Source of the DNA: an uncultured Bacteroidales bacterium
GTDB taxonomy: Bacteria > Bacteroidota > Bacteroidia > Bacteroidales > Paludibacteraceae
NCBI GenBank assembly: GCA_900319645.1
Contig: ONPG01000003.1
Location: forward strand, 269,244-333,243
Reading direction: 5' to 3'
DNA: 64,000 nt
Part shown: positions 14,467 to 56,574 of the stretch, one piece after another
How positions within the stretch are numbered: the first letter of the stretch is position 1
Layout of the letters: each line of letters opens with the position of its first letter
Notes under the pieces: model-generated
Seen by the model: the letters and a program-made list of their open reading frames with translations, nothing else
Database searches by the model: none
Told to the model about the DNA's origin: nothing
Program-made: the position numbers and the translations under genes

Positions 14467-15255
14467 ATGCAAAACACACAACTCTGGCGCGCCCTCGGCC
14501 GCAATTTCATCATCTCCATCATCCTTTTCGGAGCCTTGTTAGGACTCCTCTGGCTCGTGGAATGGATCCTCAATTGTCAATTGTCAATTGTCAATTATCA
14601 ATTACTCAAGTGGAGCAATCCCGCCTGGGTGGTCGGTATTCCCGCCTCCGTCATCGGCGTAGCCTATATCCTTACCGTGCGCGACCCGCACAACTACACC
14701 GGCTTCTATGCCGGCATCGTCATGTCTTTCCTGCTGGGCATTCAGTTCCTGCTGCAACAGCAATACGATAGCACTTTCCTCTATTTCTTCGTCTTCATCC
14801 CCTTCCAGATGATGTCGATCTACAAATGGAGCCGCAACAAAAACGACGGAGGAGCCAGCTTCGAGCCGAAGTTCCTCGACACCCCGCGTCTGATACTCTC
14901 TGTCGCCATGCTCATCTTCATCACAGCAGGCGACTTCCTGATTATGAACTACGCCATCAACGGCTCACTCTCCTTCAGCAACGGACGCGAAGTGATCATC
15001 CTGCTCCTCAACGGACTGCTCATCTCCTCCTCTTTCCTCGCCAACTACTGGCTCATCTACCGCAAAACCGACTCGTGGATATACTGGCTCATCTATAGCC
15101 TTGCCGGCATCGGGCTGTTTATCCTCATCGGAAACGTCTTCTCCATCGTCCTCTTCACGTTCTTCCTCGTCATCAACATGACAGCAGGACTCGCCTGGAT
15201 CAAGGCCACCAAACCGGAGAATATGGGCTGGCTGGCAATGTTTAATAAAGAATAA
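14467..15255 (+). CDS. pnuC: PnuC-family vitamin/nucleoside transporter
   Basis: 262 residues with about seven hydrophobic segments. PnuC-family features are visible: a membrane-embedded FFVFIPFQMMSIYKWSRN motif after the fourth helix (aromatic/Gln region and the conserved W), and a TDSWIYWLIYSLAG segment. Members import nicotinamide riboside, riboflavin or thiamine by facilitated diffusion driven by intracellular phosphorylation; the substrate cannot be told here, and no TPP or FMN riboswitch was seen upstream. The first helix is followed by a tract of CAATTGT 7-mers (14570-14604) read in frame as LNCQLSIVNYQLL, which is not a family feature. Confidence 0.85.
   Translation: MQNTQLWRALGRNFIISIILFGALLGLLWLVEWILNCQLSIVNYQLLKWSNPAWVVGIPASVIGVAYILTVRDPHNYTGFYAGIVMSFLLGIQFLLQQQYDSTFLYFFVFIPFQMMSIYKWSRNKNDGGASFEPKFLDTPRLILSVAMLIFITAGDFLIMNYAINGSLSFSNGREVIILLLNGLLISSSFLANYWLIYRKTDSWIYWLIYSLAGIGLFILIGNVFSIVLFTFFLVINMTAGLAWIKATKPENMGWLAMFNKE
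14570..14604 (+). repeat. 7-bp tandem repeat inside pnuC
   Basis: Units CAATTGT, CAATTGT, CAATTGT, CAATTAT and CAATTAC occur in tandem. The tract keeps the pnuC frame open and adds a hydrophilic loop after the first membrane helix. The same AATTGTC/TTGATAA family recurs in intergenic DNA and inside ileS and the MATE gene. Confidence 0.85.
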
Positions 15256-15309
15256 ATCGAAATATCGGTATATCGACATATCGGTATATCGAAATATCGA
15301 AATATCGAA
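15254..15309. repeat. 8-bp tandem repeats of AAATATCG/GTATATCG
   Basis: Six units of the form NNATATCG lie between the pnuC stop and the rluA-type start. The tract begins within the pnuC stop codon region. Confidence 0.85.
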
Positions 15310-15313
15310 GATT

Positions 15314-16285: not shown

Positions 16286-16296
16286 TTCAAACCACT

Positions 16297-17863: not shown

Positions 17864-17908
17864 TCCGTATCCGCCGTACATGGCGGATTTTCCATTACAA
17901 GGCCGGTA

Positions 17909-19888: not shown

Positions 19889-19921
19889 TTTCAGTTTTCA
19901 GTTTTCAGCTTTCAGTTTTCA
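19889..19921. repeat. 7-bp tandem repeat TTCAGTT
   Basis: Four units of TTCAGTT/TTCAGCT plus a partial unit. The stop codon of the DUF2461 gene (19919-19921) lies inside the tract. The same family (GAAAACT read on the other strand) occurs at 23877-23898, 26385-26409, 32380-32408 and 36925-36946. Confidence 0.85.
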
Positions 19922-20632
19922 ACATCTACTGGGAAATTCCCCGTACTCCTCAAAGGTGTAGTTGAGAAAATCGTTCATCGGTTTGGCGGCGGCAGCGATG
20001 TCCGTGACGATATCGATGAAATCAGGCGAACTGACTGTTTCGTCGCTCAGCGGACAACTCACTGTGTACATCTTGTGCTTCAGCCATTCCGCATGCACGA
20101 AATTCGGGTCAAAACCTGCCGGCACTTTCTTCAAACCGGTTCCCCAATAACTGTCAAAATCCTGTCCGAAGTATTTCTTCCAGTGTTTCGACCCCATAAT
20201 CGTTTCCACCTCTTCGTAGTTGGCTTCTATCTCGCTCCGGAGTGCTTTCAGCAACTCCTTTCCCGGATCCCATATACCCGCGGCGAACATACACTGCCCC
20301 GGCTGGATATGTACGTAATATCCGCCCCGCATGGATTTCTTGCCCCAGGTCTTCGGCTGCCCCGGCACACCTGCGGCGGGAAAACAACCGAACCACTCTT
20401 TGTACGGTCTTTTGTCGGTTGAGAAACGGATGTCACGGTTGATTCGCCAGATACAATCCTTGGGCTGCAGCGGTGCAAGCACAGGATCCATCTCCGTCAG
20501 ACGGCGCAGATACTCCTCCGTGAACGCCACAAAGCGGTCACGGCAAGCTTGGTACCATGCTCGGTTGGCATCAAACCACTCTTTGTTGTTGTTCACCGCC
20601 AACTCGCCCAGAAATCGTAATGTATCTTTCAT
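19919..20632 (-). CDS. DUF2461 domain-containing protein
   Basis: 237 residues. Matches the DUF2461 (TIGR02453) pattern: LRFLGELAVNNNKEWFDANR at the start, IWRINRDIRFSTDKRPYKEW, then GGYYVHIQPGQCMFAAGIWD. The biochemical role of the family is unknown. No signal peptide or membrane segment is seen, so it is probably cytoplasmic. The stop codon lies inside a TTCAGTT repeat tract, so the exact C-terminus may vary between strains. Neighbours are tRNA-Arg and the dTDP-rhamnose genes; no functional link is obvious. Confidence 0.88.
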   Translation of the reverse strand: MKDTLRFLGELAVNNNKEWFDANRAWYQACRDRFVAFTEEYLRRLTEMDPVLAPLQPKDCIWRINRDIRFSTDKRPYKEWFGCFPAAGVPGQPKTWGKKSMRGGYYVHIQPGQCMFAAGIWDPGKELLKALRSEIEANYEEVETIMGSKHWKKYFGQDFDSYWGTGLKKVPAGFDPNFVHAEWLKHKMYTVSCPLSDETVSSPDFIDIVTDIAAAAKPMNDFLNYTFEEYGEFPSRC

Positions 20633-20692
20633 TGAACTATTGAACTCTTTAACGTCGCATAGCGACCATTTTAACGTTTTAACATTTTAACG
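20631..20692. repeat. TTTTAACG/TTGAACT short tandem repeats with GTCGC/GCGAC hairpin
   Basis: TTGAACTAT and TGAACTC are followed by GTCGCATAGCGAC, then TTTTAACG, TTTTAACA and TTTTAACG. The rfbD stop codon (20679-20681) is within the tract. Confidence 0.75.
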
Positions 20693-21542: not shown

Positions 21543-21550
21543 AATTATTA

Positions 21551-24319: not shown

Positions 24320-25193
24320 AGATATCGTTGTGAATGTGTATATCGGTATAACCTAATCGTTTGAGCATGGCAGAAACTTCTGCGGGATAAGCCTCGTTGA
24401 TCTCGAAAAACAATGCTCTTTCCTGCCGGTCGGGGATGGATGCTTGGGGATTGCTAAAGAGTTCAGCTATGCGGCGATAGAAACGGAGCGGATCAGCGTC
24501 CGGGACAAAGAGCGCAGAGGAGGGTTCGTAGTCCAAAACATTCGGTCTCATCGAGGATTTTTCGCTTTCGCAGATATAGGGAGGATTGGAGACAATTAAG
24601 TTGAAAGATGAAAACTGAAAGTTGAAAGATACGCTTTCTGCGAAGATGTCTGCAACCCGGAAGTTGACCTCGACATGGTTACGGATAGCGTTTTGGCGGG
24701 CGACTTCGATAGCCTCGGGTGATATATCGATACCCGTCACCTGCCAGTTCGGATGGGCTTTCTTGAGGGCGATCGCAATACAGCCGCTGCCTGTGCCTAT
24801 ATCCAGAACATGTACACATTTGCTCATTTGCTCATTTTCACATTTACTCATTTGCCCATTTTCACATTTGCTCATTTCCGTATTGATTCGCTCTACTAAC
24901 TCAGCGGTTTCGGGACGAGGGATGAGCGTCGCAGGAGTGACCAGAAGATCCAAACCGTTCCACAAAGTGTGACCGAAAATATACTGAATCGGTTCATTTC
25001 GCAGCAAACGCGCGATTATTTGGTCAATTGTTTGCGTATTCGGTATATTTTTTGTATCTTTGCAGCCGAATTGCAGTTGTGTACGGCTTTTGCCGGTGAG
25101 TTCTTCGAGTATCCACCACGCCAAAGCGACTGCCTCGTCGGCGGGATAGACGGGCATCAAACGCGTTTTGATATAAGCGATTATTTCTTTCAC
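24282..25193 (-). CDS. prmC: Release factor glutamine methyltransferase (PrmC/HemK)
   Basis: 303 residues. N-terminal helical substrate-binding domain, then the class I methyltransferase with VLDIGTGSGCIAIALKKAHP (SAM loop) and IVSNPPYICESE (catalytic NPPY near residue 204). It methylates the GGQ glutamine of peptide release factors. The start is GTG at 25193. The predicted -7 box ends only 5 bases upstream, so the mRNA may be nearly leaderless. Two in-frame repeat tracts are present: 8-mers coding for MSKCENGQMSKCENEQMSKC (24816-24879), and TGAAA heptads coding for FNFQFSSFN (24599-24630) just before the NPPY motif. Confidence 0.93.
   Translation of the reverse strand: MKEIIAYIKTRLMPVYPADEAVALAWWILEELTGKSRTQLQFGCKDTKNIPNTQTIDQIIARLLRNEPIQYIFGHTLWNGLDLLVTPATLIPRPETAELVERINTEMSKCENGQMSKCENEQMSKCVHVLDIGTGSGCIAIALKKAHPNWQVTGIDISPEAIEVARQNAIRNHVEVNFRVADIFAESVSFNFQFSSFNLIVSNPPYICESEKSSMRPNVLDYEPSSALFVPDADPLRFYRRIAELFSNPQASIPDRQERALFFEINEAYPAEVSAMLKRLGYTDIHIHNDIYGKPRIVQGRMA
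24599..24630 (-). repeat. 7-bp tandem repeat (nnTGAAA) inside prmC
   Basis: Units GTTGAAA, GATGAAA, ACTGAAA and GTTGAAA on the plus strand; on the coding strand it is read in frame as FNFQFSSFN, shortly before NPPY. Confidence 0.8.
24816..24879 (-). repeat. 8-bp tandem repeat inside prmC
   Basis: Eight near-identical units of CATTTGCT/CATTTTCA/CATTTACT are read in frame as repeats of MSKCEN. The tract is inserted just before the SAM-binding loop (VLDIGTG). Confidence 0.88.
25031..25062 (+). promoter_or_regulatory. Candidate ribD promoter embedded in prmC
   Basis: TTTG (25031-25034), 20 bases, TATCTTTG (25055-25062) is a full consensus match within the prmC coding region, reading toward ribD. 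It would give a leader of about 150-160 bases. Confidence 0.5.
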
Positions 25194-25230: not shown

Positions 25231-26313
25231 ATGGATTACGAAAAATACATCAAACGATGCCTTGAGTTGGCTCAACGAGGCGAGTATTGGGTGGCTCCGA
25301 ACCCGATGGTGGGCGCAGTATTGGTACATGAACAAAGGAACAATGTACAAAGTACAAAGGAGGAGATTATTGCGGAAGGCTGGCACGAACGGTTTGGAGA
25401 AGGACATGCGGAAGTCAACTGTTTCCGGAATGCGGAAAACAAGCTACAAAGGGACAATATACAATGTGCAAAGGATTTTTATAAAGACTGCACGCTGTTT
25501 GTTTCTTTGGAGCCGTGCAGCCATTACGGGAAGACGCCGCCTTGCGCGAAACTGATTATCGAGAAAGGTGTCGGGCGCGTAGTGGTCGGCATGCCGGATC
25601 CGAATCCGTTGGTGGCAGGCAGAGGAGTGCAGATGCTACGCGAGGTGGGAATAGAAGTGGTAGTGGGTGTGTGCGAGAAAGAGTGCCGCGAACTGAACAA
25701 GCGCTTCCTGTGTCTGCATGAGAAAAAAAGACCATACGTGATCCTTAAATGGGCGCAAACCGGCGACGGGTTTATTGATGTACTAAGGGACAAGGGACAA
25801 AGTAAAACGGCACATCTGAACGGGGCGTTGGCTATCTCGACGGAAAAGACGAAGGCGATCGTACATAAAATGCGGGCAGAGAACATGGCAATCATGGTGG
25901 GAACCAATACCGTACTGATGGACAACCCGCGTCTGCTGAACACCCATTGGGAGGGCAGAAACCCCATTCGCGTGACGGTGGACAGACACGGTATTTTGCC
26001 GATGGAATCGAGGATTTTTGCTCCTACTGAGAGCGACTACAAGGGGATTGATCCTGTGATTGTTTATCGCGAACGGACCGACTGGCCGTTTATTACCGAA
26101 GACTTGGGCAAACGAGGTATTCATTCTATTCTGGTGGAAGGCGGGACACGTCTGTTGGAACATATTTTAGAGACAGGAATCTGGGACGAGATCCATGTGG
26201 AAGTAGCACCCGAATTGCGCATAGGCGAAGGCGTGAAAGCACCCGAGATCACATTGCCTGATACCTTTGAAGAGGTCAATGGGCATCGTTTATACACGCT
26301 TTTTTCCCGTTAA
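25216..26313 (+). CDS. ribD: Riboflavin biosynthesis bifunctional deaminase-reductase
   Basis: 365 residues. The deaminase domain (1-150) has the zinc motif HAEVNCF and EPCSHYGKTPPCAKLI. The reductase domain (from about 170) has PYVILKWAQTGDGFI, NTVLMDNPRLL and SILVEGGTRLLEHI. It catalyses two successive steps of riboflavin synthesis. ATG 25231 (MDYEKYIKR) is an equally good start. Three in-frame tracts of ACAAAG-type 7-mers interrupt the deaminase and linker (EQRNNVQSTKEE, KLQRDNIQCAK, LRDKGQSKT), making the protein slightly longer than usual. It is divergent from prmC with 22 bases between start codons. Confidence 0.94.
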   Translation: MIYTNMDYEKYIKRCLELAQRGEYWVAPNPMVGAVLVHEQRNNVQSTKEEIIAEGWHERFGEGHAEVNCFRNAENKLQRDNIQCAKDFYKDCTLFVSLEPCSHYGKTPPCAKLIIEKGVGRVVVGMPDPNPLVAGRGVQMLREVGIEVVVGVCEKECRELNKRFLCLHEKKRPYVILKWAQTGDGFIDVLRDKGQSKTAHLNGALAISTEKTKAIVHKMRAENMAIMVGTNTVLMDNPRLLNTHWEGRNPIRVTVDRHGILPMESRIFAPTESDYKGIDPVIVYRERTDWPFITEDLGKRGIHSILVEGGTRLLEHILETGIWDEIHVEVAPELRIGEGVKAPEITLPDTFEEVNGHRLYTLFSR

Positions 26314-26321: not shown

Positions 26322-26367
26322 GAATCACGCTATAATCACGCTATAATCACGCTATAATCACGCTATT
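26322..26367. repeat. 11-bp tandem repeat ATCACGCTATA
   Basis: Four units after the ribD stop codon, differing by at most one base. The same 11-base period is seen inside ileS with a different unit. Confidence 0.88.
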
Positions 26368-26650: not shown

Positions 26651-28414
26651 ATGAAAAAAACATTATTGACAATCCTTTTATGCGCGGGCGCATTGAGCGT
26701 GAGCGTGTCAGCCGCTGAGAAAGCGGACTGGTATCTATATGTGTGGGCTCAGGATGGTCCGCAAGGCGATTTGGGTCAGTTTGAGACCACCGAAGAAGCG
26801 AATATATTCGTGATTCCGTCATGCGAGGTGACCGTACAAGGTATCGGTTTTTGCGTTCGCAACGGCAGTTGGTCGTCCCAATACGGCTGGGACAGCGAGA
26901 GCGTGAGCACAACGGGAACGGATGTGCGTCTTGCCACCTCCACCCAAGCCAACGGCTGGCTGGCATTGCCGGCAGGCACCTACAAAGTGACATGGAACAG
27001 CACGGCTCTCACCATCCGTTTTGACACGCCGGACGAGGAAGAGCCGGGTGAACCGGAAGAACCGGAGACCAAAACAGGCAAGTTCCTGCGCGGAGGCGAC
27101 CTGAGCATGGTGACCTATCTGGAAGACTGGGGAACAGTATATAAATACAAGGACGGGACAGCCGGAGACGTGTTTGAGATCCTGGAGAAATACGGCGTTA
27201 ACCTCGCCCGTTTGCGTTTGTACAACACGCCGGGAACAGCCGTCAAGAGTGGCAGCACGACCTATCGTACGCCGGTCAAGTCTCCGCGTAACAACTGGCA
27301 AGGCTATGCCTATGCCGGACCGGATGACGTGCTGGAACTGGCGAAACGCGCCAAGGCTCATCACATGCAGATATGTCTGTCTATCTACCTGAGCGATTAC
27401 TGGGCAGGAGCCACCGAGCAATATATCCCGCAAGCATGGAAAAACGTGACGAGCAACGACGTGCTGGCCGACTCAGTTTACAACTATGTGTATGCGTATA
27501 TGCAACGGCTTGCCGCTGAGGATATTTACCCAGAATATGTGTCTGTGGGCAACGAGACGAACTACGGTATTCTCTACACCAGCCTTAACGGAACGAAAGT
27601 GGGCTTCGGCGGTCATACGGACAACATCAGCCAATGCGTCAAACTGTTCAACAAAGCCTATGACGCCATCAAAGCCGTTTCGCCGGAGAGCAAGGTGATC
27701 ATCCACCACAGTTACGGCGACGCAGGGAAAATAGGTGTATGCCGCAATTTCTTCAAGAACCTGCAGAACAACGGTTGCAAGTTCGACATAGTGGGCGGAT
27801 CGTACTACCCCCACTGGTCGCAAAACCACGGAGCAAGCGACGACACACCAACCGGCATGCTGGCCTGGGCACGTGACATGGAAACGAATATCGGCAAGCC
27901 TGTGATGCTGATGGAAGTGGGTTACTCGTGGACCCAATACCGTCCGAACGAGAAAAACGGCGGAGACTACGAAGGCCAACTGCACATGAACGGCAGTTAC
28001 AACGAGGCATCGGAGGCAGGTCAGGAAGCATTTATCAAGAGTCTGCACGAGGCATTGGACAGCGACGAGAACATCTTGGGCTACATGTACTGGGATCCTG
28101 TTTTCGTGGATCAGAAAGTGAGCGGAAGCTGGACCGAGGTATGCTGGGCGGAGAAATACGACTCGGGCTATGACACCTGGTGGCAGGACGGCAACATCAT
28201 CTCCAACACCACGCTGTTTGACTACAACGGCATGCCGCTGAGTGCGTTGTGGCGCGAGACAGGAGCCTATTACCAGCCGGGGACCACAACCGGGAACCCC
28301 AGCCGGGAAATCCCATCAAAAGAGGGCGTGAAAATTCTTCGGGACGGACAACTCTATTTGATGTACGAAGGAGCGATGTACAACGTACAAGGAACGAAAG
28401 TAATTGGAAATTGA
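26651..28414 (+). CDS. Secreted GH53 arabinogalactan endo-beta-1,4-galactanase
   Basis: 587 residues. Signal peptide 1-22; N-terminal beta-sandwich resembling SusE/SusF-type starch-binding modules (about 24-125); acidic Pro/Glu linker (EEEPGEPEEPET); then a GH53 barrel (about 145-540) starting RGGDLSMVTYLEDWGTVYKY. The catalytic acid/base is in YVSVGNETNYG (Glu near residue 301) and the nucleophile in VMLMEVGYSW (Glu near 421). It cuts beta-1,4-galactan side chains of pectin. The end carries the shared C-terminal tag (LRDGQLYLMYEGAMYNVQG), suggesting surface display. Its stop overlaps a TTGATAA repeat that also supplies the next start codon. Confidence 0.93.
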   Translation: MKKTLLTILLCAGALSVSVSAAEKADWYLYVWAQDGPQGDLGQFETTEEANIFVIPSCEVTVQGIGFCVRNGSWSSQYGWDSESVSTTGTDVRLATSTQANGWLALPAGTYKVTWNSTALTIRFDTPDEEEPGEPEEPETKTGKFLRGGDLSMVTYLEDWGTVYKYKDGTAGDVFEILEKYGVNLARLRLYNTPGTAVKSGSTTYRTPVKSPRNNWQGYAYAGPDDVLELAKRAKAHHMQICLSIYLSDYWAGATEQYIPQAWKNVTSNDVLADSVYNYVYAYMQRLAAEDIYPEYVSVGNETNYGILYTSLNGTKVGFGGHTDNISQCVKLFNKAYDAIKAVSPESKVIIHHSYGDAGKIGVCRNFFKNLQNNGCKFDIVGGSYYPHWSQNHGASDDTPTGMLAWARDMETNIGKPVMLMEVGYSWTQYRPNEKNGGDYEGQLHMNGSYNEASEAGQEAFIKSLHEALDSDENILGYMYWDPVFVDQKVSGSWTEVCWAEKYDSGYDTWWQDGNIISNTTLFDYNGMPLSALWRETGAYYQPGTTTGNPSREIPSKEGVKILRDGQLYLMYEGAMYNVQGTKVIGN

Positions 28415-28437
28415 TAATTGATAATTGAAAATTGAAA
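28411..28437 (+). repeat. 7-bp tandem repeat TTGATAA spanning a stop and a start codon
   Basis: Units TTGATAA, TTGATAA, TTGAAAA and TTGAAAG. The galactanase stop (28412-28414) and the TTG start of the next gene (28432) both lie within it. Confidence 0.85.
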
Positions 28438-36940: not shown

Positions 36941-36962
36941 AATCTATAAAACTACTATAACC

Positions 36963-39879: not shown

Positions 39880-39993
39880 TAAAGTCGAAAGACAAAAGAC
39901 CGTAACCTATGGTTACTCAAAGCATAATCGGCTTTGAACGATAGTGGTCTTTGAGCGTTAGCGGTCTTTTATCTTTGAGCGTTAGCGGTCTAA
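39880..39993. repeat. Repeat tract TCTTTGAGCGTTAGCGG and GTCGAAAGAC between spt and mdh
   Basis: Holds GTCGAAAGACAAAAGACCG and then TCTTTGAGCGTTAGCGGTCT twice, plus a diverged third copy (GGCTTTGAACGATAGTGGTC). It reaches the mdh stop codon. Confidence 0.75.
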
Positions 39994-41079: not shown

Positions 41080-42126
41080 ATGATTTGTACAGATTTACAT
41101 AGTTGTTTGTCGCCGATTTTGGTGAAATACGACCCTTCGCAAGTGGTTGTAGTCCGTGACAGCAAGGTGGAGTTGAGTCCATCCGTATCGGCTCTTTTCT
41201 CCGCGCATCTGGTGCTGGAGACAGATGAGTCGCGCAAAGGGATAGAGAGCGTCGAGCGTATCTGGGATTTTCTGCTGGAGCACCATGTCACGCGCAGCGG
41301 CGTGCTGGTGGCTGTCGGCGGCGGTGTGCTGACGGATATGGCGGGTTTTGCGGCTGCCACCTACAAACGCGGTATCGCGTATGTGAATGTGCCTACCACC
41401 CTGTTGGCGATGGTGGACGCCTCTACCGGCGGCAAGACCGGATTCAACTACGGCGGGCTGAAAAACAGCATCGGTGCGTTCTGTCAGCCGGTAGCCACGG
41501 TGATCTATCCGCCGTTCCTCAAGACCCTCCCTCCGCATGAGTTCCTCAGCGGTTTTGCAGAGATGCTCAAAACGGGATTGTTGGAGAGCGAGGGAACAAC
41601 TCCACGTTTATGGGACAGGTTGCTGCAATATGATCTGGATCAAGTCGAAAGCGATGAGGGGTTATCACCCTTAATCGCCTCCTGTATCGCTGTGAAGGAA
41701 CGTATCGTGGCGGCCGATCCGACGGAGAAGGGACTCCGCAAAGCACTCAATTTAGGGCACACTTTCGGTCACGCTTTGGAGGAAATCCAAATGGTAAATG
41801 GTCAATGGTCAAATGGTAAATGGCTTCACGGCTATGCCGTGCTCTACGGCATGATTGCAGAGCTTTATTTGTCAGTGAGTTTGTTAGGCTGCCCGCGCGA
41901 GCCCTTGCAGCAACTGACCCAACTGATGCTGCACTATTACGGCAAACCGCAATGCAAGTGTTCCGACCGCGAACAACTCATCGCGCTCATGCGCCAGGAC
42001 AAAAAGAACGAGCGCACAGCCGAGATCAACTGCACGCTCCTGCGCCGCATAGGCGAACCGGTTATCAACCAAGTCATTACACCTTCCCAAGCCGCCGAAG
42101 CATGGGATTACCTCTTCAGTCTGTAG
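41080..42126 (+). CDS. aroB: 3-dehydroquinate synthase
   Basis: 348 residues from the ATG at 41080, chosen because the -7 box lies at 41060-41067, so an upstream in-frame start at 41017 would not be transcribed. Motifs: VAVGGGVLTDMAGFAAATYK (NAD loop), YVNVPTTLLAMVDASTGGKT, FAEMLKTGLLES and LNLGHTFGHALE (zinc His pair). It cyclises DAHP to 3-dehydroquinate, the second step of the shikimate route. AATGGTA/AATGGTC 7-mers are inserted in frame right after the HTFGHALEE motif (QMVNGQWSNGKW). Confidence 0.95.
   Translation: MICTDLHSCLSPILVKYDPSQVVVVRDSKVELSPSVSALFSAHLVLETDESRKGIESVERIWDFLLEHHVTRSGVLVAVGGGVLTDMAGFAAATYKRGIAYVNVPTTLLAMVDASTGGKTGFNYGGLKNSIGAFCQPVATVIYPPFLKTLPPHEFLSGFAEMLKTGLLESEGTTPRLWDRLLQYDLDQVESDEGLSPLIASCIAVKERIVAADPTEKGLRKALNLGHTFGHALEEIQMVNGQWSNGKWLHGYAVLYGMIAELYLSVSLLGCPREPLQQLTQLMLHYYGKPQCKCSDREQLIALMRQDKKNERTAEINCTLLRRIGEPVINQVITPSQAAEAWDYLFSL
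41788..41823 (+). repeat. 7-bp tandem repeat AAATGGT inside aroB
   Basis: Units AAATGGT, AAATGGT, CAATGGT, CAAATGGT and AAATGGC, read as MVNGQWSNGKW. Confidence 0.85.
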
Positions 42127-44976: not shown

Positions 44977-46458
44977 TTATCGGCATGGAGAACTCACCAT
45001 TTTAAGTATAAAAGAACGCATATCTGCGGTGTTTGTTCCCAGTTTTCGAGCTGTTGTATATTTAAATTTTCCAAGTCCACTTTGGGCATATGGGAGCAAT
45101 TCTACCATTTGCGAAGTAGATACTTTAAGCAAAATCAAAATACAAAGCCTTGTTTCTTTTTCTGATAGATTATACTCGTGCAAACGCGAAACTATATTAT
45201 ACATGTAATGGTCTGCTAATGCACACATTTCTAAATAGTTATTCCAGTGGAGAAAATCCTTAATATCTTTATTAGTGTGAATGGATAGACATAAGTTATC
45301 TATATCTTCTATAATTGCATTATAATGTATCTCTTGCATTTGCGATAAATCATCTATATTCTTTGCAAGTGCTGATTTTTGTAATTCTTTATTACGAATG
45401 TCTTGAATGATTTGCTGATGATGTTTGCGCTTTCTCCATATATGGCATAGAAGAGTCAATGCAATCATGAATAATATTCCAGCCAGTATCGAATATAGCC
45501 ATCTCCAATCATATTTTTTGTTTAAATCCTGCTGTAATAGTAATACCGCGTTCGCGTAATAACCATTTTGAACTGCCCATTCTTTTTGTGCATCTGCACG
45601 TTTATATGTAAGGGATAATATACTGTCATGTGTTAACGTATTGTTATCATGCAGCAGAATATAATATGCCGGTATCAGAAATCTATTGTTGGAAGTACTT
45701 TGGCTGATTAAGTGCGCATATGCAATTGCAGAGTCCATTTTGTTTAAGTGCTCAAATGCTTGCGCTTTCATCAAGAAATAGAATAAATCATATATTCCAT
45801 TGGATAACATAGAATCAATGGCTTGTATTGCTTTTTCATATTCCTCGCAGCGTAAGTATAAGAGAGCTCTTGTTTCTAGAGATTTGGAGATAATTGCTTG
45901 ATCATTAAACTTTTGTATGGGATCTAATAGCAGGTTGGTGTTTAGAATATTACCTTGCTCTGCCAACGCAAATGCCATGTTATTAATATCATAATAATAT
46001 AATAATGTGTCTCCATTTCGGAGATACATCTCCGAGGACTTTTCGTACATATCATAAGCAAGATCAAACTCACCCGCCAAGTGACAAATATCTCCCATAT
46101 TGCTATAGACCCGACCTAATATATGGTAATCGCGTGTGCGGGAATGGGTGGCAGCGAGGAAAGCCTGCATGGCTTCCACGGGGTTGTCTTTCTTGCGCAG
46201 AAGACGACCGTAGTGGTAGCAACTATGCGCGAATTCATCGGGAAAAATCGTCTGTGCACGGTCTAATTTTTGGTACGCCTCTGCGAGCGTGACGCTGTCG
46301 CCGGCATCGATGCCGTACATCTGCCCCCCGCGCCACACGCTGTCCGCTTCCGCTACTACTGTCTCAGCCTCGCGTACAGAAAGGGGCACACACGCCATAA
46401 GGAGAAATCCTAACAGCATGTATGCCCCTAACTTGCTCAGATGACGATAATCATTCAT
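44977..46458 (-). CDS. Membrane TPR sensor with C-terminal HTH, mosaic gene
   Basis: 493 residues. Signal/lipobox near residue 23 (LLGFLLMAC). TPR helices from about 35 to 310 are probably periplasmic; a membrane helix lies at about 324-345 (ILAGILFMIALTLLCHIW). A cytoplasmic coiled coil follows, then a LuxR-like HTH (LSEKETRLCILILLKVSTSQ to TARKLGTN). Bacteroidetes one-component regulators have this layout. The first ~110 codons (46458 to about 46125) have the composition of the neighbouring core genes, while the rest is AT-rich like the downstream cassette, which suggests recombination inside the gene. Its ATG overlaps the asmA stop by one base (TAATG). The likely target is the promoter at 44870-44901. 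Confidence 0.85.
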   Translation of the reverse strand: MNDYRHLSKLGAYMLLGFLLMACVPLSVREAETVVAEADSVWRGGQMYGIDAGDSVTLAEAYQKLDRAQTIFPDEFAHSCYHYGRLLRKKDNPVEAMQAFLAATHSRTRDYHILGRVYSNMGDICHLAGEFDLAYDMYEKSSEMYLRNGDTLLYYYDINNMAFALAEQGNILNTNLLLDPIQKFNDQAIISKSLETRALLYLRCEEYEKAIQAIDSMLSNGIYDLFYFLMKAQAFEHLNKMDSAIAYAHLISQSTSNNRFLIPAYYILLHDNNTLTHDSILSLTYKRADAQKEWAVQNGYYANAVLLLQQDLNKKYDWRWLYSILAGILFMIALTLLCHIWRKRKHHQQIIQDIRNKELQKSALAKNIDDLSQMQEIHYNAIIEDIDNLCLSIHTNKDIKDFLHWNNYLEMCALADHYMYNIVSRLHEYNLSEKETRLCILILLKVSTSQMVELLPYAQSGLGKFKYTTARKLGTNTADMRSFILKMVSSPCR

Positions 46459-49400
46459 TATTCTATACGGACATTCCGCTCCATCGACTGTTTGATGCGC
46501 TGACGCAATTCGAGCGATTGGGTATCAACTTTCTGATACCAGTGCGGTTTGAAGTCCTTGGCGAACTTGCACTTGGCGAGTTTGATTTTCAGATTGTCGA
46601 TGTTACCGCTCACGTTCACGCCCAGATAGATCGGGCTGAGGACGTTGATGTCGTAGTCAAAGGTCATGTCGGTGTTGTGCCGTCCTCCGAGAGCCACCAT
46701 ATAGTTGTCCATCTGGACGCAGAGCGGATAGATGTCGATCTCGTTCTTGTAAACGGTCATCTCGGCATTGATAGAGTCGATCTTGTTCTCGGTTTTCTTC
46801 TTGAAGAGCAGCATTTTGCTGATCTGGTCGAAGGTCTCGCCATCCAGCACCACGAGGTCCTTACCGGTGAGTGAAGCGGCTCCACGGAGCGTGCTCATCT
46901 TCGGTTCGTAGCGGCTGTTGAGGTAGGTCTCCGCCGCCAGATGGAACTCGGCAGCTCCCTGGAAGGAACTGAGCATAGGAACCATCTCCTCGAGGTTGGG
47001 AATCATGGTTAACAACTCGTCGATGTCCACATCGAGCATGTGATAATCCAAGCCCAGATAGAGGTGGTTGCGACGTGGTGTGCGATACATAGCCGTCAGT
47101 TGCAGTTTGGCAGCCCGACAGACGAATCCCATCTCGTCCAGAATGAGTGTGCCATCCTTGACGTACAAACCGCCCTTGAGGTCTTTGGCTACCTGATTGA
47201 AGATAGCCACCTCACGCATGTGGGTGTTCAGCGCCAGATCGACGTCTGTAGGAACGAGGAAGGGGTCGGGGTCGGCATTGGCGGTGGTGTCGGCGTTGGC
47301 ATTGGCGTTGGCATTGGCGGTGGCGGTGGGGTCGGCGGTGGTGTCGGCGTTGGCATTGGCGGTGGCGATGTTTTCTTTCTCTTCTTTGGGTGTTTCTTCG
47401 GAGCCGCTGTCAGCGGAGAACCACTCCAAGAGCTGGTTGGCGTCGCAGTGGTCGGAGACAATATCCAACTCGCCTTGCAGCACCGCCTGATGGCGGAACC
47501 ATCTGCCTATATTGCGTACATTTCCCTTGAGGTTCAGATCGCTGTTACCCAACTCCACGCGGGCGTTGTTGATAGCCATCTCGCGGTTGGAATAGCTGAA
47601 ATCGATAGAGGGTATCTTGACCGTCTCCGGAAGTCTCTCGGGCATCGTGAGCGCACCGCTGTTCAGGTTCACTTTGAGTTTCGGATTCCATTTGAGGAGT
47701 ACGTTCTCACCGCGTTTGTTGTATCGTGCGCCGACCTCCAGAGCCAGGTCCTTGGTTCGAGCTTGCAGTTCCTGCCCCATCGCGGCATCGAGTGCGGTGG
47801 TACGCAACTGAGCCGTCAGGCGTTTTCCTCCGCTCACAGCCGCGCTGAGTTGCGATTGTCCCAGCGTAGCTTTTATCTCATTGGCAAAGCCGTTGAGTGC
47901 ATTGCAAGCCAACGCCATCTCCGCCTTGTGGAGTCTTACGGTGTCCTTGGTGTTATACTCCGCATAGAGTTGCAGTTGCGGCGCATCGAGCTGACCTCCC
48001 ATCGAGTCCAGTTCGGCTACGACCTGTTGCTCGGTCTGCAAACCGACAGAGGCATAGATCATCGGATCGTTCGAAAGGACATTGCTTGCCTCCAACTGGA
48101 CAGCCGAAGTCCGGAGGTTGGCTTTCAGTTGGTCGATCATCTCAAAATCCACTCCCTGCGCCTGCAGATCAAGACGTACCCAGTTGGCTTTGGTTTTTGA
48201 GGGGTTGGGGTTAGGAATATGGAGGACAGCACGCGTAGCAGGCAGATACGCCAGCATCGAATCCATAGCGTAGTGAATATCTGTCAGCTGGAGATCGGCG
48301 TTGATCTTACCTTTGTGCAGACGCATCTGAGTCAGATCTGCCAGACGTCCCCGCACCTTCATCGTACCTTGTGCTTTCCCGTCCAAGGCCATTTCCTCAG
48401 GCAGGAAATAGGCGAAATCCGGCAGGTTGGCATCGAGTTTCAAAGCCAGGTCAAGGAACATATCTCCCAAGATGTCAGACACTTGCGCATTGAGAACAGA
48501 CAATTGAGAATTGCGTGTAGCGGCGTGGAGTTTATGAATGACGGCGTTGGATTTCTGCCCTTTGTTGAGGTTGAGATCCGCCTCCACATCCAGGGTCAGA
48601 TCGCGCAGGGTGTAAGGCAGGGGTTCGTAGCTTCCCACACCTTCGTCCAGTGTCAGACGGGCTTGCACCAGCGGCATCCTGTTTTCGGAGAGGTAGCCTT
48701 GGATAGTAGCATCCAGCGTTGCCCTGCCGTCTATATCGAGGTCCTGAAGCGCCTCGGTGAACTTATCCGGCACCAGCGCCAGAAGGGGTTTGATCTGCCA
48801 TTTGCCGGTTTGTATGTTCGCATTGAGCGCGATGCTATCGCCGAGTGTCACGTCTCCCTGAAGCCGAATGTCGAACTCATTGACCGCCAGCTTTGCGCCA
48901 TCGAAGGCAAAGTGCATGGTGTTGAGGTCCATCGCCATCGGGGCAATCAGTTCCAAGTGGAGGTTGTCGGCGTAGGTGTCTCCCTGGAGCGAAGCGCAGA
49001 CATCGTGTGCGTCAAGCGCAATAAGCATGTCGTCCCAACTCTCTGCTTTGGCTGACAAGACGGTCTGTCCCAAAGAGGCGCTGATGGTGTCTTTGGCATC
49101 CACAAAAGTGATGTAGTCGGCTTGCAGGCTGAGACCATCAACACGCAGGGCGTTGAAAGGCAGCGAGAAAGCCGAAGTATCCTCGGCTGTGGTGTCCGGC
49201 TGGGAGAGGAAGATGTCCGTCAGGTTGGTTGTTCCATCCTCCGCGATGAAGAAATTGACACGTGTACCCTCCAAAACCGCCTCGTGGACGTGCAGATTGC
49301 TGTTGTTGAGAAACTCCATGACGTCCACTATGGCAATCAGGGTACGCGCCTCGAGCACGGTATCGTTCCGGCTTCCGGCTTTGGGGTTGATGATCAGCAA

Positions 49401-49619
49401 GCCGTCGGCACGCAGACCAAAACGCGGGAAAGTGGAGATAAAAGTGAGATCCACTTGCCCTATCTCATGCTCGCATGTCAGATAGGCATCCGCCGCTTTG
49501 CGGGCAATAGGCGTAAGGCGCTCGGGCGTGAAAATAACGTAGCAGGCGATAGTGACCGCAGCCACTACCGCCAGCACAATGCCCAGAAGCGTCCAGCCGA
49601 TAATTTTAAGGGCTTTCAT
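46458..49619 (-). CDS. AsmA-family outer-envelope lipid transport/assembly protein
   Basis: 1053 residues. An N-terminal membrane helix (ALKIIGWTLLGIVLAVVAAV) is followed by the AsmA N-domain (ARKAADAYLTCEHEIGQVDL, TFPRFGLRADGLLIINP), a long beta-rich groove and a C-terminal AsmA-like region (LRGAASLTGKDLVVLDGETF, PIYLGVNVSGNIDNLKIKLA). AsmA-like proteins are thought to form lipid bridges between the membranes. A low-complexity repeat (ANANAD/ATAN, around residues 750-785) is coded by GGCATTGGC/GGCGTTGGC hexamers. It is third in the ileS operon, 15 bases after the lipoprotein gene. Confidence 0.88.
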   Translation of the reverse strand: MKALKIIGWTLLGIVLAVVAAVTIACYVIFTPERLTPIARKAADAYLTCEHEIGQVDLTFISTFPRFGLRADGLLIINPKAGSRNDTVLEARTLIAIVDVMEFLNNSNLHVHEAVLEGTRVNFFIAEDGTTNLTDIFLSQPDTTAEDTSAFSLPFNALRVDGLSLQADYITFVDAKDTISASLGQTVLSAKAESWDDMLIALDAHDVCASLQGDTYADNLHLELIAPMAMDLNTMHFAFDGAKLAVNEFDIRLQGDVTLGDSIALNANIQTGKWQIKPLLALVPDKFTEALQDLDIDGRATLDATIQGYLSENRMPLVQARLTLDEGVGSYEPLPYTLRDLTLDVEADLNLNKGQKSNAVIHKLHAATRNSQLSVLNAQVSDILGDMFLDLALKLDANLPDFAYFLPEEMALDGKAQGTMKVRGRLADLTQMRLHKGKINADLQLTDIHYAMDSMLAYLPATRAVLHIPNPNPSKTKANWVRLDLQAQGVDFEMIDQLKANLRTSAVQLEASNVLSNDPMIYASVGLQTEQQVVAELDSMGGQLDAPQLQLYAEYNTKDTVRLHKAEMALACNALNGFANEIKATLGQSQLSAAVSGGKRLTAQLRTTALDAAMGQELQARTKDLALEVGARYNKRGENVLLKWNPKLKVNLNSGALTMPERLPETVKIPSIDFSYSNREMAINNARVELGNSDLNLKGNVRNIGRWFRHQAVLQGELDIVSDHCDANQLLEWFSADSGSEETPKEEKENIATANANADTTADPTATANANANANADTTANADPDPFLVPTDVDLALNTHMREVAIFNQVAKDLKGGLYVKDGTLILDEMGFVCRAAKLQLTAMYRTPRRNHLYLGLDYHMLDVDIDELLTMIPNLEEMVPMLSSFQGAAEFHLAAETYLNSRYEPKMSTLRGAASLTGKDLVVLDGETFDQISKMLLFKKKTENKIDSINAEMTVYKNEIDIYPLCVQMDNYMVALGGRHNTDMTFDYDINVLSPIYLGVNVSGNIDNLKIKLAKCKFAKDFKPHWYQKVDTQSLELRQRIKQSMERNVRIE
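47262..47370 (-). repeat. Hexanucleotide repeat (GGCATT/GGCGTT/GGCGGT) inside the AsmA gene
   Basis: About fifteen units code for alternating Ala-Asn/Ala-Thr/Ala-Asp. A short related tract (GGCGTTGGCATTGGTATTG) is found inside ileS at 52556-52577. Confidence 0.85.
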
Positions 49620-50078: not shown

Positions 50079-53000
50079 TTATGCTTTTTTGATGTTAATT
50101 TTTACGTTGTAACCATCCATCTCGATTAATTGACAATTGCCAGTTGATAATTGACAATTCAGGTCTAACTTAGTGGCGAGGACTTGTGAAGCGATATAAT
50201 CGCCGCAATGGAGGACTGCATTGTGGATCTCGGGGCGGTCTTCGAGTTCGATCTCGATACGGTCGGTAATCTCGAGTCCGGAGGATTTGCGGAGATTCTG
50301 GATGCGGTTGATGAGTTCGCGCGCAATACCCTCTTCGATGAGTTCGTCCGTCAGTTCGATATCAAGGGCGATAGTAAGGATACCATTGTTCGCCACGAGC
50401 CAGCCCGGCATGTCTTCGGTCAGGATCTCGACGTCCTCGGGCACTATCGTGTAGTCGAAAGTCGAAAGTCGAAAGTCGAAAGCACCTTCGGTTTCCATCT
50501 TTGCAATCTCGTCCTGAGACATAGCGTTGATAGCGGCAGCAAGGGCTTTCATGTTTGCGCCTACTTTCTTGCCAAGGACTTTGAAGTTCGGTTTGATCTT
50601 CTTGACGAGACGGATCTCCGATTGCTCGGCAGGAACGATGACGAGTTCCTTGACGTTGACCTCTGATTTGATAAGGTCAGCAACGTGGAGGAGCGCATCG
50701 GTTGTCTCCTGATCAGGCGTCGGTATAACGGCTTTCTGGAGCGGCTGACGGACGTTCTTCTCGGCGCGTTTGCGGAGCGAGAGGATAGTGGAAGTCGCTT
50801 GCTGGGCGAGGTACATCTGACGCTCCAAGACTTCGTCTATGGCTTCGGCATCGGCTTTGGGCCACGTGCTAAGGTGCACCGTTTCGCCCGTGAGGTCACG
50901 ATAGAGCCGGTCGGCATAGAACGGAGCGTTAGGCGCCATGAGTTGCGCTACGGTCTTGAGGCAGGTGTAGAGCGTATCGTAAGCCGCCTGTTTGTCGGCG
51001 TTCATCTCGCCTCCCCAGAAACGTTTGCGGTTGAGACGCACGTACCAGTTGGAGAGGTCATCCTGGACGAAATCGGAGATAGCACGTCCGGCCTTGGTGG
51101 GCTCGTACGCCTCATAGGCTTCGGTAACCTCACGGATGAGGGAGTTGAGTTTGCTCAGTATCCACAGGTCGATCTCAGCATATCCCTGCGATTCGTTTTC
51201 GTCTCGTTTTCGACTCGTTTTCGTCTCGTTTTCGTCTTTGACCGCTGGTTGCCAGCCATCGACGTTCGCATAGAGTGCGAAGAATCCGTAGGTGTTATAG
51301 AGCGTTCCGAAGAACTTACGGCGGACTTCATCAACGCCTTCGGGATCGAACTTGAGGTTCTCCCACGGCGAAGAGTTGGTGAGCATATACCAGCGGACAG
51401 GATCGGCTCCGTATTTGTCGAGCGCTCCGAAGGGATCGACGGCGTTGCCGAGACGTTTGGACATCTTGTTGCCGTTCTTGTCGAGGACAAGACCGTTGGA
51501 GATGACGTTTTTGTAGGCTACGGTTCCTTCGATCATGGTGTGGATTGCGTGGAGGGTGAAGAACCATCCGCGGGTTTGATCCACGCCTTCGGAGATGAAA
51601 TCGGCGGTACGCGGGGCGTCTGCATTCTCGAAGGGATAGTGGTTCTGTGCGTACGGCATAGCGCCGGAGTCGAACCAGACGTCGATAAGGTCAAGTTCGC
51701 GCTTCATCGGTTTGCCGGACGGCGAGACGAGGATGATCGAGTCCACATACGGACGGTGAAGATCGATGACGGAAGGATCGTAGTTGGCTTTGGAGTAGTC
51801 GCCCACGATGTGTTTCGGCCAAGGATTAGCCGGCATAAAGCCCGCCTTCACAGATTTGTCGATTTCCGTGAAGAGTTCAGCGATGGAACCGATACACATC
51901 TCTTCGCTTCCGTCCTCGGTACGCCAGATAGGCAGTGGTGTACCCCAATAACGCGAACGGGATAGGTTCCAGTCGTTGAGGTTGTTAAGCCACTGGCCGA
52001 AACGTCCTGTTCCGGTGGATTCGGGCTGCCAGTTGATGGTCTTATTGAGGGCAATCATCTCGTCACGCGCCATAGTGGATTTGATGAACCACGAGTCGAG
52101 CGGATAATAGAGAACCGGTTTGTCGGTACGCCAGCAATGCGGATAGGAGTGTACGTGCTTCTCCGTGCGGAGGAGACGTCCGTCGGCTTTCATCTCCAGA
52201 CAGAGATGGAGGTCGAGTGTCTCGGCTTTAGCCGCAGCGGTTTCGTCGTACTTGCCGTCGATAGTGAACTGCGGGTCGTAGGCGTTCTTGACCCAACGAC
52301 CTGCGTAACGGCGGTAGAGTTCGTCGTTGACATTGGATTTGTACCAATCTTGGTCCAAATCTTCCACACGCCAATATTTGCCGGTGAAATCGACCATCGG
52401 ACGCGGCCCGTTGTTCTTGGTTTGCATATAGAGCCCCGGCACTCCGGCTGCGTCGGCTACTTTCTTATCGTCGGCACCGAAAGTAGGCGCAATATGCACG
52501 ATACCTGTTCCGTCTTCGGTGGTGACGTAGTCTCCGGGGATGACGATATAGGCTTTGGCGTTGGCATTGGTATTGCCGAGGGGATTGACCCAGGGAAAGA
52601 GGGGTTCGTATTCAAGACCGACGAGGTCAGCACCTTTGTAGCGGGCTACAATCTTCGGCTCAACGGGTTTGCCTTCTTCGTCTGTTCCGCAGAGGTCTTT
52701 CTGATAAGCCGAGAGACGAGCTTCAGCGAGAATGATATGGTCGCCGGCAGGTGTCTCCACTTCCACGTAGTCGATCTTCGGTCCCACGCAGAGAGCCGTG
52801 TTGGAAGGCAAGGTCCAAGGCGTGGTGGTCCAAGCGATGATATAAGTAGAAAGACCGCTACGCTCAAAGTCGAAAGCCGAAAGACCTTTTCCTTTCACCT
52901 TGAAACGGGCGGTGCAGGTCAGGTCTTTGACGTCACGATAACAGCCGGGCTGGTTGAGCTCGTGGGACGAGAGACCTGTTCCGGCAGCCGGCGAATAGGG

Positions 53001-53540: not shown

Positions 53541-53580
53541 TATAGTGGTTTTATTTTAGTCGTCAAACATAATTAGCGTG

Positions 53581-53612: not shown

Positions 53613-53628
53613 ATTTTTTGTACCTTTG
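53598..53628 (+). promoter_or_regulatory. Promoter of the MATE gene
   Basis: TTTG (53598-53601), 19 bases, TACCTTTG (53621-53628). Predicted start near 53635. Confidence 0.75.
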
Positions 53629-53651
53629 CACGCAAAATCGCAAATCCCACT

Positions 53652-55115: not shown

Positions 55116-55134
55116 CTTAAAAATACACAAAGAT

Positions 55135-56574
55135 ATGGAACCCAAAGCAGTATTTGACATTTTTGCTCAGATCAACCAGGTGCCTCGTCCGTCGAAGCAC
55201 GAGGAGCGTATCAGCCGCTGGTTGCAGGATTTTGCCGCAGAGCACGGCATCGAGTGTGTGACCGACGAGGCGATGAACGTGATCATGCGTGTACCCGCTA
55301 CACCCGGCTACGAAGACCACGAGGGTGTGATCCTTCAGGCGCACATGGATATGGTGTGCGAGAAGAACGGCGATGTGGAGCACGATTTTATGAGTGACCC
55401 TATCCAGACCTACGTGGACGGCGAGTGGCTCAAAGCCAAAGGAACGACCCTCGGCGCTGACGACGGAATAGGTATCTCGATGGCACTCGCGGCTATCACC
55501 GACAAGACCCTTCCCCACCCGGCTATCGAGTGTCTCTTCACAGTAGACGAAGAGACCGGACTCACGGGTGCGATGAAACTGCAGGACGGCATGCTCCGCC
55601 ACAAACGCCTCATTAACATCGATTCCGAGGACGACGGCCAGATCTTCATCGGCTGTGCCGGAGGTATCGACACCCTCGCCAAGATGCACTATGAGCCCGT
55701 ATCAGCTATCAGTGATCAGCCATCAGCCATCGCCATCCGCCTCTCAGTCAGCGGATTGATGGGCGGTCACTCCGGCGACGACATCAACAAAGGTCGTGCG
55801 AACGCCAACCAGATCCTGGTTTGGTTCCTCGCACGTCTCTGGCCGCAGACCGAGGTGCAACTCGCTTCTATCCAAGGCGGCAACCTCCGCAACGCGATTG
55901 CCCGCGAGGCGGAAGCCGTCATCGCTATCCCGATGGCATACAAAGAGCAGATCCGCATCGAGTGGAACCATTTCGTAGCGCAGATGGAAGGCGTGTTCGG
56001 CGAGGTAGAGAAAGACATGCGGCTCGATCTGGAGACCTGCGACATGCCCGAACTCTTTATCCCTGCCGAGAAAGCGTATCGTCTGGTGATGGCGCTTTGC
56101 GAGTGTCCGCACGGAATGATTGCCATGAGCAAAGACATGCCGGGACTCGTAGAGACATCCACCAACCTCGCCTCGATCAAGATGAAAGAGGGATTTATCG
56201 AAGTCAACACCTCGCAGCGTTCGTCGATCGAAGCCAGCAAACACCACCTCAAATGGGCGGTAGAGCAGGCTCTCTCGATGGCGTGCGACGAGGTGACGCA
56301 CGGCGACGGTTATCCGGGTTGGGCTCCCAACACCCACTCGGCGCTCCTGGAGGTTACCAAAAAGGCATACAAAGACCTCTTCCACGCCGAGCCGCAAGTG
56401 CTGGCTATCCACGCCGGACTGGAGTGCGGACTCTTCCTGGAGAAATATCCGTATCTTGACATGGTTTCTATCGGCCCGCAAATGTACGGCGTTCACTCGC
56501 CGCAGGAGCGCCTTTCGATTCCTTCCACCGAGCGCTGCTACCGCTGGCTCTGCCAGGTATTGAAAACATTGTAA
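55135..56574 (+). CDS. pepD: Aminoacyl-histidine dipeptidase (M20)
   Basis: 479 residues. M20C metallopeptidase: VILQAHMDMVCEKN (metal His/Asp), TTLGADDGIGISMALAAI (bridging Asp) and CLFTVDEETGLTGAMKLQ (catalytic Glu pair), then DSEDDGQIFIGCAGG. It hydrolyses Xaa-His and other dipeptides in the cytoplasm. Length and order match family members in Bacteroidetes. A tract of ATCAGCT/ATCAGCC heptads (55700-55735) is inserted in frame (AISDQPSAIAI) at the start of the dimerisation (lid) domain. It is 19 bases after the MATE gene and ends at a bidirectional terminator. Confidence 0.95.
   Translation: MEPKAVFDIFAQINQVPRPSKHEERISRWLQDFAAEHGIECVTDEAMNVIMRVPATPGYEDHEGVILQAHMDMVCEKNGDVEHDFMSDPIQTYVDGEWLKAKGTTLGADDGIGISMALAAITDKTLPHPAIECLFTVDEETGLTGAMKLQDGMLRHKRLINIDSEDDGQIFIGCAGGIDTLAKMHYEPVSAISDQPSAIAIRLSVSGLMGGHSGDDINKGRANANQILVWFLARLWPQTEVQLASIQGGNLRNAIAREAEAVIAIPMAYKEQIRIEWNHFVAQMEGVFGEVEKDMRLDLETCDMPELFIPAEKAYRLVMALCECPHGMIAMSKDMPGLVETSTNLASIKMKEGFIEVNTSQRSSIEASKHHLKWAVEQALSMACDEVTHGDGYPGWAPNTHSALLEVTKKAYKDLFHAEPQVLAIHAGLECGLFLEKYPYLDMVSIGPQMYGVHSPQERLSIPSTERCYRWLCQVLKTL
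55700..55735 (+). repeat. 7-bp tandem repeat ATCAGCC inside pepD
   Basis: Units ATCAGCT, ATCAGTG, ATCAGCC and ATCAGCC plus a partial, read as SAISDQPSAI. Confidence 0.85.

Follow-up and report, generated by a model that had tools for sequence, protein, structure and literature searches.

Repeat tracts in the window

The DNA considered here, called the window throughout, is a stretch of 64,000 nucleotides from an uncultured Bacteroidales bacterium (positions 269244-333243 of contig C20 in assembly G000, which comprises 2.64 Mb in 48 contigs and is 84% complete). Its subject is a population of short tandem repeats that lie both between genes and within the open reading frames (ORFs) of ordinary enzymes. 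Their units are mostly of 7 bases, also of 8 or 11, and usually three to five units follow one another; those within genes keep the reading frame, contain no stop codon, and are located in loops and hairpins. For comparison, relatives were collected by an IleS search with one genome per species, which gave at least 524 of them, and the best 80 were kept. Among the matches listed, the nearest (∼91% identity) are metagenome-assembled genomes (MAGs) of uncultured Bacteroidales/Paludibacteraceae from ruminant and other guts, and by these IleS relatives G000 is placed in the uncultured gut Paludibacteraceae.

An earlier note, made from the letters of the window alone, had reported in-frame arrays in pnuC, in prmC (two), in aroB, in ileS (a 7-mer and an 11-mer) and in pepD, and all of these are present. 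In pnuC, a 7-mer array of TCAATTG/A (14570-14604, plus strand) encodes residues 35-46, NCQLSIVNYQL. On the minus strand, prmC has an in-frame 8-mer array of AAATGAGC/AAATGTGA at 24817-24877, read as residues 106-126 (MSKCENGQMSKCENEQMSKC), and a degenerate 7-mer tract of the TTTCAAC/TTTCAGT type at 24598-24628 (residues 189-199). The plus-strand arrays of aroB (AAATGGT, 41789-41823) and pepD (ATCAGCY, 55700-55731) are in-frame 7-mers that span residues 258-269 and, in a hairpin loop, residues 189-199, respectively. Four in-frame tracts lie in ileS, on the minus strand: a repeat-derived insert of TTTCGAC type (52845-52890, residues 217-232; ileS-218 below), an 11-mer array of four AGACGAAAACG units, one with a GTCG variant, in a loop (51193-51237, residues 768-783; ileS-768), a TTTCGAC 7-mer array of 4.3 copies in a hairpin (50453-50482, residues 1020-1030; ileS-1020), and a 7-mer array of AATTGAC type in the C-terminal hairpin (50128-50159, residues 1128-1138). 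The first and the last of these four were absent from the earlier list.

Other entries of that list are weaker or missing. The tracts of ribD (ACAAAGT, 2.9 copies, 25340-25359, plus strand; and 2.3 copies, 25785-25800) and of a predicted glycosyltransferase ORF (degenerate 7-mers of GGACAAA type with 73% matches, 36551-36590, plus strand) are present but weak, while the TCCATTG repeat ascribed to the MATE gene has no two adjacent copies anywhere in the window. As for the genes themselves, NCBIfam/Pfam profile searches upheld the names of PrmC, RibD, IleS, MATE and PepD; AroB scores 296.8, slightly below the NCBIfam cut-off of 305, PnuC is below its cut-off (38.1 against 42.45) and clear by Pfam, and the glycosyltransferase ORF has no Pfam match at E ≤ 1e-5.

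Most of the arrays claimed between genes are also real. They comprise 7-mers of TAAATCG (14068-14101), of TTTCAGT (19889-19921) and, as a composite of AATTGAT and AATTGAA, at 28402-28437; 8-mers of ATCGAAAT (15256-15309) and of ATTGAACT and TTTTAACG (20631-20692); an array at 21550; and an 11-mer element on the plus strand (26323-26366) with exactly four AATCACGCTAT units and the right flank TTTTACCAAC. TTTCAGT is the commonest period-7 unit in the 464 kb sample described below (20 arrays), and a 17-base probe for it gives 50 hits genome-wide. One more 7-mer array, of AAACTGA (36920-36942), overlaps the 3' end of the ORF at 35966-36940. Two sites differ from the earlier list: the array at 13970 sits in the 5' part of the called minus-strand ORF 13215-14012, and near 39880 the repeat finder gives only a 17-mer, at 39932.

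Abundance, periods, and unit families

How far do these tracts exceed chance? In the window, runs of at least 10 matches number 8 at lag 7 and 5 at lag 11, against 0.1 and 0.0 expected (means of 20 order-2 Markov simulations). Peaks at lags 7 and 11 recur in a further stretch of C20, in C15, and in the loci of the 80 relatives, where 7 is the commonest short period. Counts for the genome itself were made on 464 kb (∼18% of G000), i.e., the window together with a further 240 kb of C15 and 160 kb of C20. There, a scored array finder returned 57 arrays of period 7, 27 of period 8, 36 of period 11, 9 of period 6, and 11 of period 9, and it returned none of any of these periods in two order-3 Markov simulations; the excess of period 7 over simulated sequence, which the earlier note had anticipated, is thus 57 arrays to 0.

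Because ORFs were called by a script that simply takes the longest frame and thereby exaggerates coding density, the coding/intergenic split and the gene contexts are approximate. On this basis, 33 arrays of period 7, 15 of period 8, and 21 of period 11 fall beyond the called ORFs, and 18, 11, and 11, respectively, lie well within them. Period-7 arrays are over-represented outside genes (33/57), while called ORFs span 94% of the bases, itself an overestimate. Arrays of periods 6, 9, and 12 are confined to called ORFs or their edges, like protein repeats. What is apparently an ordinary in-frame protein repeat also occurs in the window, at 47274-47367, where a 6/42-base repeat codes for Gly, Val, and Ile within an ORF of 1053 residues (46458-49619).

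The copy number lies between 4.3 and 4.7 in 10 of the 18 heptamer arrays within ORFs, and between 4.0 and 4.2 in 12 of the 25 11-mer arrays outside them, mostly of one family. The other heptamer arrays range from 2.6 to 10.3 copies, shorter ones being below the threshold of the finder.

The 464 kb contain 61 different period-7 units, led by AAAACTG with 20 arrays and followed by AATTATC and AAAATTG (9 each) and AATTGAC (6). One consensus, TNTCARY, stands out, since at least two such units are found in 36 of the 57 period-7 arrays; permuting the unit positions gives 2.0 such arrays on average and never more than 7. Because its reverse strand contains TGA, a TNTCARY array can code one way round only; in ORFs of at least 150 residues the stop-free orientation is found in 8 of 8, and elsewhere the two orientations number 11 and 17. 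TTTCGAC is stop-free in both directions and occurs in ORFs both ways.

Three tandem TNTCARY units are present in 133 of 395 Bacteroidota genomes, where G000 is highest with 232 hits. Within the genus, 72 of 81 genomes have them (G000 is included in both sets), and the counts span 0 (G422, G432, G442, and G467) to 564, with G443 and G444 among the high ones; TATCAGT arrays are found in congeners such as G464. The reversed pattern, YRACTNT, gave 41 hits in G000 (29 and 12, against 108 and 124 for TNTCARY), and rotations of the genuine TTTCGAC family fit it as well, so that it is not a clean null. It is the commoner of the two patterns in several congeners (G401, G403, and G462). TNTCARY is the main family of G000, not of every congener. 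Outside the genus, three genomes of another Bacteroidota family (G193, G233, and G378) have abundant arrays of both TNTCARY and the reversed form and represent a second heptamer-rich lineage.

Arrays in enzyme loops across species

Seven loops of ileS, prmC, aroB, and pepD were compared across species in 412 loop sequences, which are those of the best-matching loci rather than a random draw, with near relatives counted separately. An array is found in 138 of the 412, against 3.9 when the same peptides are synonymously recoded; for control windows taken from these genes, some of them overlapping with other array loops, the figure is 50 of 3819. Within ileS, arrays occupy ileS-218 in 16, ileS-768 in 39, ileS-1020 in 32, and the C-terminus in 13 of 81 sequences, with 11, 26, 8, and 7 distinct units, respectively. 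For prmC, aroB, and pepD, the occupancies are 10/28, 11/30, and 17/30, with 8, 8, and 13 units. One and the same loop carries different units in different congeneric species, and the cause is at the level of DNA, not of the peptide. The orthologs differ at the array positions, as the earlier note had expected of an alignment, and still other species have a short non-repetitive loop at these sites. A different kind of sequence was also seen at the same loops of ileS, prmC, and aroB: palindromic inserts of CCCTCCC..GGGAGGG type, encoding SLPLGEGRGE-like peptides, in L033, L037, L043, L044, L066, L117, and L213.

Does an array enlarge a loop, or does it replace what was there? In pepD, the loop has ∼10-13 residues in most congeners, with an array or with none, and the Vibrio-type PepD structure 3mru aligns there with just a few residues fewer; since the length is kept either way, the array has replaced the old loop here without enlarging it. 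The non-repeat forms of ileS-218 and aroB are much shorter (at residues 217-232 of ileS, many relatives have just D-G-R), so that the array adds residues there. The earlier description of the tracts as insertions is therefore right for ileS-218 and aroB and wrong for pepD. Once in place, arrays appear to decay, as judged from the point changes between the pepD arrays of L241 and L236.

Variable-length blocks, which make up 15% of the residues, contain 111 of 118 in-ORF arrays, and the arrays themselves help to make these blocks variable; the count covers the three families next to ileS with at least 10 orthologs (3 of the 9 ORFs tried), and 102 of the 118 arrays are in ileS itself. Mapping on predicted models, another suggestion of the earlier note, puts the arrays in loops or hairpins. 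The PepD model (mean pLDDT 78.1, pTM 0.66) has the array between two strands, and the IleS model has its four arrays in hairpins or loops, although this model is poor (mean pLDDT 64.4, pTM 0.47) and was used for local secondary structure alone.

Copying of whole arrays and probable exchange between species

Two 11-mer arrays recur at unlinked places within a single genome in copies that are identical or nearly so, down to their internal variants. The first is the AATCACGCTAT family, represented in the 464 kb by nine arrays, all outside ORFs and all of exactly four units (44 bp). Five of them are identical over the 44 bp and have a variant unit 2, one has a variant at unit 3, and three have no variant unit; an exact right flank TTTAACCAAC accompanies seven of the nine, and the left flanks are related. 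With a 22-base probe the family is found at 19 places genome-wide.

The second is the 45-bp 11-mer array of ileS, which was sought in the 81 genomes. It is exact at two places of G000 (ileS and RNase R) and at one of G457 (an amidase gene), and with up to two mismatches it occurs at four more places of G000, three of them in ORFs. The hosts are IleS, RNase R, a DHODB/glutamate synthase fusion, ValRS, an AroA-like/glycosyltransferase ORF, and the amidase. Six of the seven copies are thus in ORFs, of unrelated families, on one strand and in one frame, with a peptide ending in ..RKRDEN; the seventh, L114, lies between ORFs, and a shorter degraded copy is found at an eighth place, L166.

One of these hosts deserves a separate mention. 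At L113, near 47.4 kb of contig C12 in G000, a single ORF has an AroA-like domain (Pfam, residues 183-298) and a glycosyltransferase domain (residues 355-559). The 11-mer array separates the two domains, and it may link what would be two genes into a single frame.

As for the heptamers, a 30-bp TTTCGAC array is identical in ileS and at L019, and the TTTCGAC arrays of the ORFs L013 and L020 agree in a variant unit. A given unit is not confined to one place: those of in-ORF heptamer arrays recur elsewhere, and whole arrays are copied. Within the 464 kb, the unit is found again at another place for 13 of the 18 in-ORF heptamer arrays and for 31 of the other 39; of the distinct arrays of other species, 73 of 223 have a unit also present there (13/18 against 73/223, Fisher p 0.0014).

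Movement between species is suggested by ileS itself. The IleS proteins of L030, L029, and L036 are 97-98% identical, and at residue 1020 the array is TTTCGAC in L030 and TATCAAC in the other two. By sliding identity, in three windows around this residue, L030 matches the ileS studied here at 94-97%, L037 at 88-97%, and its own sisters L029 and L036 at 64-70%. Most simply, the tract of L030 and its array would have moved by homologous recombination between species.

Gene context and orientation outside ORFs

Outside ORFs, period-7 arrays lie between tandem genes in 23 of 34 cases, against 54% of intergenic bases, with 6 between convergent and 5 between divergent genes, i.e., near background. 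Among the 24 TNTCARY arrays outside ORFs, 15 are nearest a stop codon and 9 nearest a start. All nine of the latter run in the opposite direction to the gene, as given for TAACTGA upstream of starts in MacGregor 2015. Of those nearest a stop, 11 of 15 are within 15 bases of it, with strands mixed (10 opposite, 5 same). Arrays thus often reach a gene end or provide it, and the stop codon itself may come from those whose coding strand contains TGA.

In the window as a whole, tRNAs are the only RNA families found at gathering threshold, and an ORF of 3337 residues occupies 1575-11588 on the minus strand.

Origin of the arrays

How did these arrays arise, and how did they reach so many places? The explanation preferred here, to which we assign a probability of about 0.48, is that the tracts are a genome-wide population of short dispersed tandem repeats, which arise in slippage-like events, spread as blocks, pass from species to species, and are kept where they are harmless. 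Birth would occur by slippage, or by iterated template switching, with a 7-base step. Whole blocks would then be copied to other sites by template switching or ectopic conversion, with microhomology landing in a multi-copy repeat; selection would retain only the in-frame, stop-free copies in tolerant spacer loops, and later events would overwrite older arrays there. Since stepwise 7-base slippage in an essential gene would pass through a frameshift, block copying would be favoured at such places. The idea of a repeat-generating process acting in tolerated loops, already put forward in the earlier note, agrees with the genome-wide placing of 7-, 8-, and 11-bp arrays at tolerant loops.

A bolder formulation, which we regard as doubtful, supposes an undescribed genome-writing process that takes arrays, typically of about four units and with a step of 7 or 11 bases, from a source present in many copies and writes them into arbitrary sites. 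It would overwrite 30-50 bases each time, and so often that sister species come to differ in the tolerant loops of their core enzymes; it would also have produced the heptamers of Cyanobacteria, Beggiatoaceae, and Xanthomonas, some of which prefer four units.

Several points weigh against the block-copying population proposed above. Copying of whole arrays is shown for two 11-mer families only, the argument for heptamers being the sharing of units, and TNTCARY units resemble one another so closely that repeated local birth is possible as well. In the test of unit sharing, the two sets are not fully matched, because the foreign arrays come from anywhere in the relatives' loci, not from ORFs alone. 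For AAATCAC, taken as a probe of genome-specific repertoires and contained in the pepD loop of three genomes (one of the loops mixed with AAATCAT), the hits number 7 in G440, two of them in pepD itself, 3 in G426, and 0 in G421, and 23 other genomes also have some. The units of ileS arrays are common to their own flanks in 6 cases against 3.3 permuted (30 loci, P 0.07), a weak signal. No empty site in the relatives is clean enough to define an insertion junction, and a sample of one genome per species does not reach the present-day activity of the arrays. Finally, the single orientation near starts, although favoured by ORF calling, is a hint at a regulatory role.

The most serious competitor, possible though on the unlikely side, is purely local birth: polymerase slippage at each site with a preference for 7 bases, an idea attributed to Mrazek 2007, with births and decay so fast that species come to differ. 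The prevalence of period 7 across the relatives' loci, the very many different units at one loop, the apparent decay of pepD arrays, and the third of foreign period-7 units that occur in G000 too are all as one would expect from it, and no mobile enzyme tested correlates with the arrays. What it accommodates poorly are the identical arrays with internal variants and a common flank at unlinked loci, and the one consensus family that takes 36 of the 57 period-7 arrays; moreover, in essential genes its single 7-base step would shift the frame and probably give a lethal intermediate. Loss of mismatch repair was considered as well and was ruled out, as a search at E ≤ 0.001 finds MutS in 79 of the 81 genomes, and the protein is complete in G000, G443, and G444. 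Loops of 7 to 8 bases are outside the usual repair range of MutS.

Could a dedicated mobile system, such as a REP/RAYT-like transposase, IS200/IS605, or a reverse transcriptase, mobilize the arrays? The fixed four-unit length and conserved right flank of the AATCACGCTAT family speak for it, together with the in-frame copies in many genes and the wide range of counts in the genus. It is nevertheless improbable, because Y1_Tnp occurs in 26 of the 81 genomes (many of them incomplete) without relation to array counts (Mann-Whitney p 0.21), G444 has 353 hits and no Y1_Tnp found, and neither the two 11-mer elements nor the pnuC array show folding beyond that of shuffled sequence (z of -0.23 for the ileS 11-mer array and +2.48 for the AATCACGCTAT element; a TTTCGAC array folds slightly better, z -1.57). 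Just as improbable is a role as functional sites, i.e., regulator binding sites or phase-variable switches. TNTCARY does contain TATCAGT, a rotation of TAACTGA, for which MacGregor 2015 suggests translational regulation, and all nine arrays nearest starts are oriented as TAACTGA is; however, ORF calling would produce the same bias, because arrays in the other orientation have no stop codon and would become part of the called ORF. Gene context is near background, strands are mixed near stops, the units at one site vary between species, and essential genes are poor phase switches; the hosts include ileS, prmC, aroB, and valS, with arrays in frame in relatives. A cause at the level of protein, be it peptide repeats or ordinary conserved loops, is very improbable: array peptides do alternate hydrophobic and polar residues, which suits hairpins, but like arrays also lie between genes, orthologs differ at the array positions, and the synonymous recoding, with 3.9 arrays instead of 138, rules it out. 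Least credible is an artefact of MAG assembly or binning, which the incompleteness of G000 and the MAG origin of its named relatives might invite, as the pattern recurs in intact reading frames of many separately assembled relatives.

The genus offers a natural experiment, in which the same loops of essential enzymes are refilled by different arrays whose variants can be traced from site to site, and the origin of period-7 repeats becomes testable. Core proteins carry spacer loops that are rewritten by DNA-level processes faster than the rest of the protein changes, with consequences for the alignment, phylogeny, and structure prediction of proteins from these gut bacteria.

Comparison with known systems

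The STRR repeats of cyanobacteria are recurrent heptamer families located between genes; to our knowledge, no colonization of loops within genes has been described for them. In Rickettsia, one short palindromic element lies in frame in many unrelated genes, and these elements are longer and form hairpins. The 45-bp 11-mer array, in frame in six unrelated ORFs, resembles them in this respect, whereas the arrays described here are tandem, non-palindromic, and only 44-45 bp long. Unlike REP/RAYT elements, they are accompanied by a Y1 transposase in just 26 of 81 genomes, with none found in G444.

Dispersed heptamer repeats are already known, and their behaviour in genes as described here was found in no paper searched; in the open-access literature, no paper was found on such arrays in core genes of Bacteroidales. 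Lists of heptamer repeats in bacterial genomes go back to 2007, and slippage has been the usual guess at their origin (Mrazek 2007, as cited in MacGregor 2015 and Rehm 2015). The earlier note knew of no such family in Bacteroidetes; in fact, heptamer arrays have been described there, a few of them in ORFs in several lineages (MacGregor 2015).

Rehm 2015 (PMC4692102) describes GGGNATC of Xanthomonas and GGGGAYT of Nostoc, which are dispersed, enriched in non-coding DNA, variable between relatives, inclined to four units, and tied to G-quadruplexes. The arrays of G000 are likewise dispersed, enriched outside genes, and variable between relatives, and their copy numbers are a partial parallel to the four-unit preference. 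However, units such as TTTCGAC have no G-tracts, so that a length of four units need not mean the formation of a G-quadruplex.

A close likeness is to the heptamer LSSRs reported from Beggiatoaceae, Cyanobacteria, and five Bacteroidetes including Paludibacter (MacGregor 2015, PMC4679880), where some arrays are in ORFs, mostly at protein ends, and slippage was proposed. In both cases 7-base units form short dispersed arrays that abound between genes, and units of 5-11 nt are far above chance, with 7 the commonest; TAACTGA is, by rotation and complement, TATCAGT, which fits TNTCARY. The nine TNTCARY arrays nearest starts have its orientation, a bias to which ORF calling would contribute. Related heptamers are rare as direct repeats beside TAACTGA, whereas 61 different period-7 units, in many families, are found here; and in place of protein ends, the arrays of this genus occupy internal loops of core enzymes genus-wide, with units that vary by species at a given site and with some copying of whole arrays.

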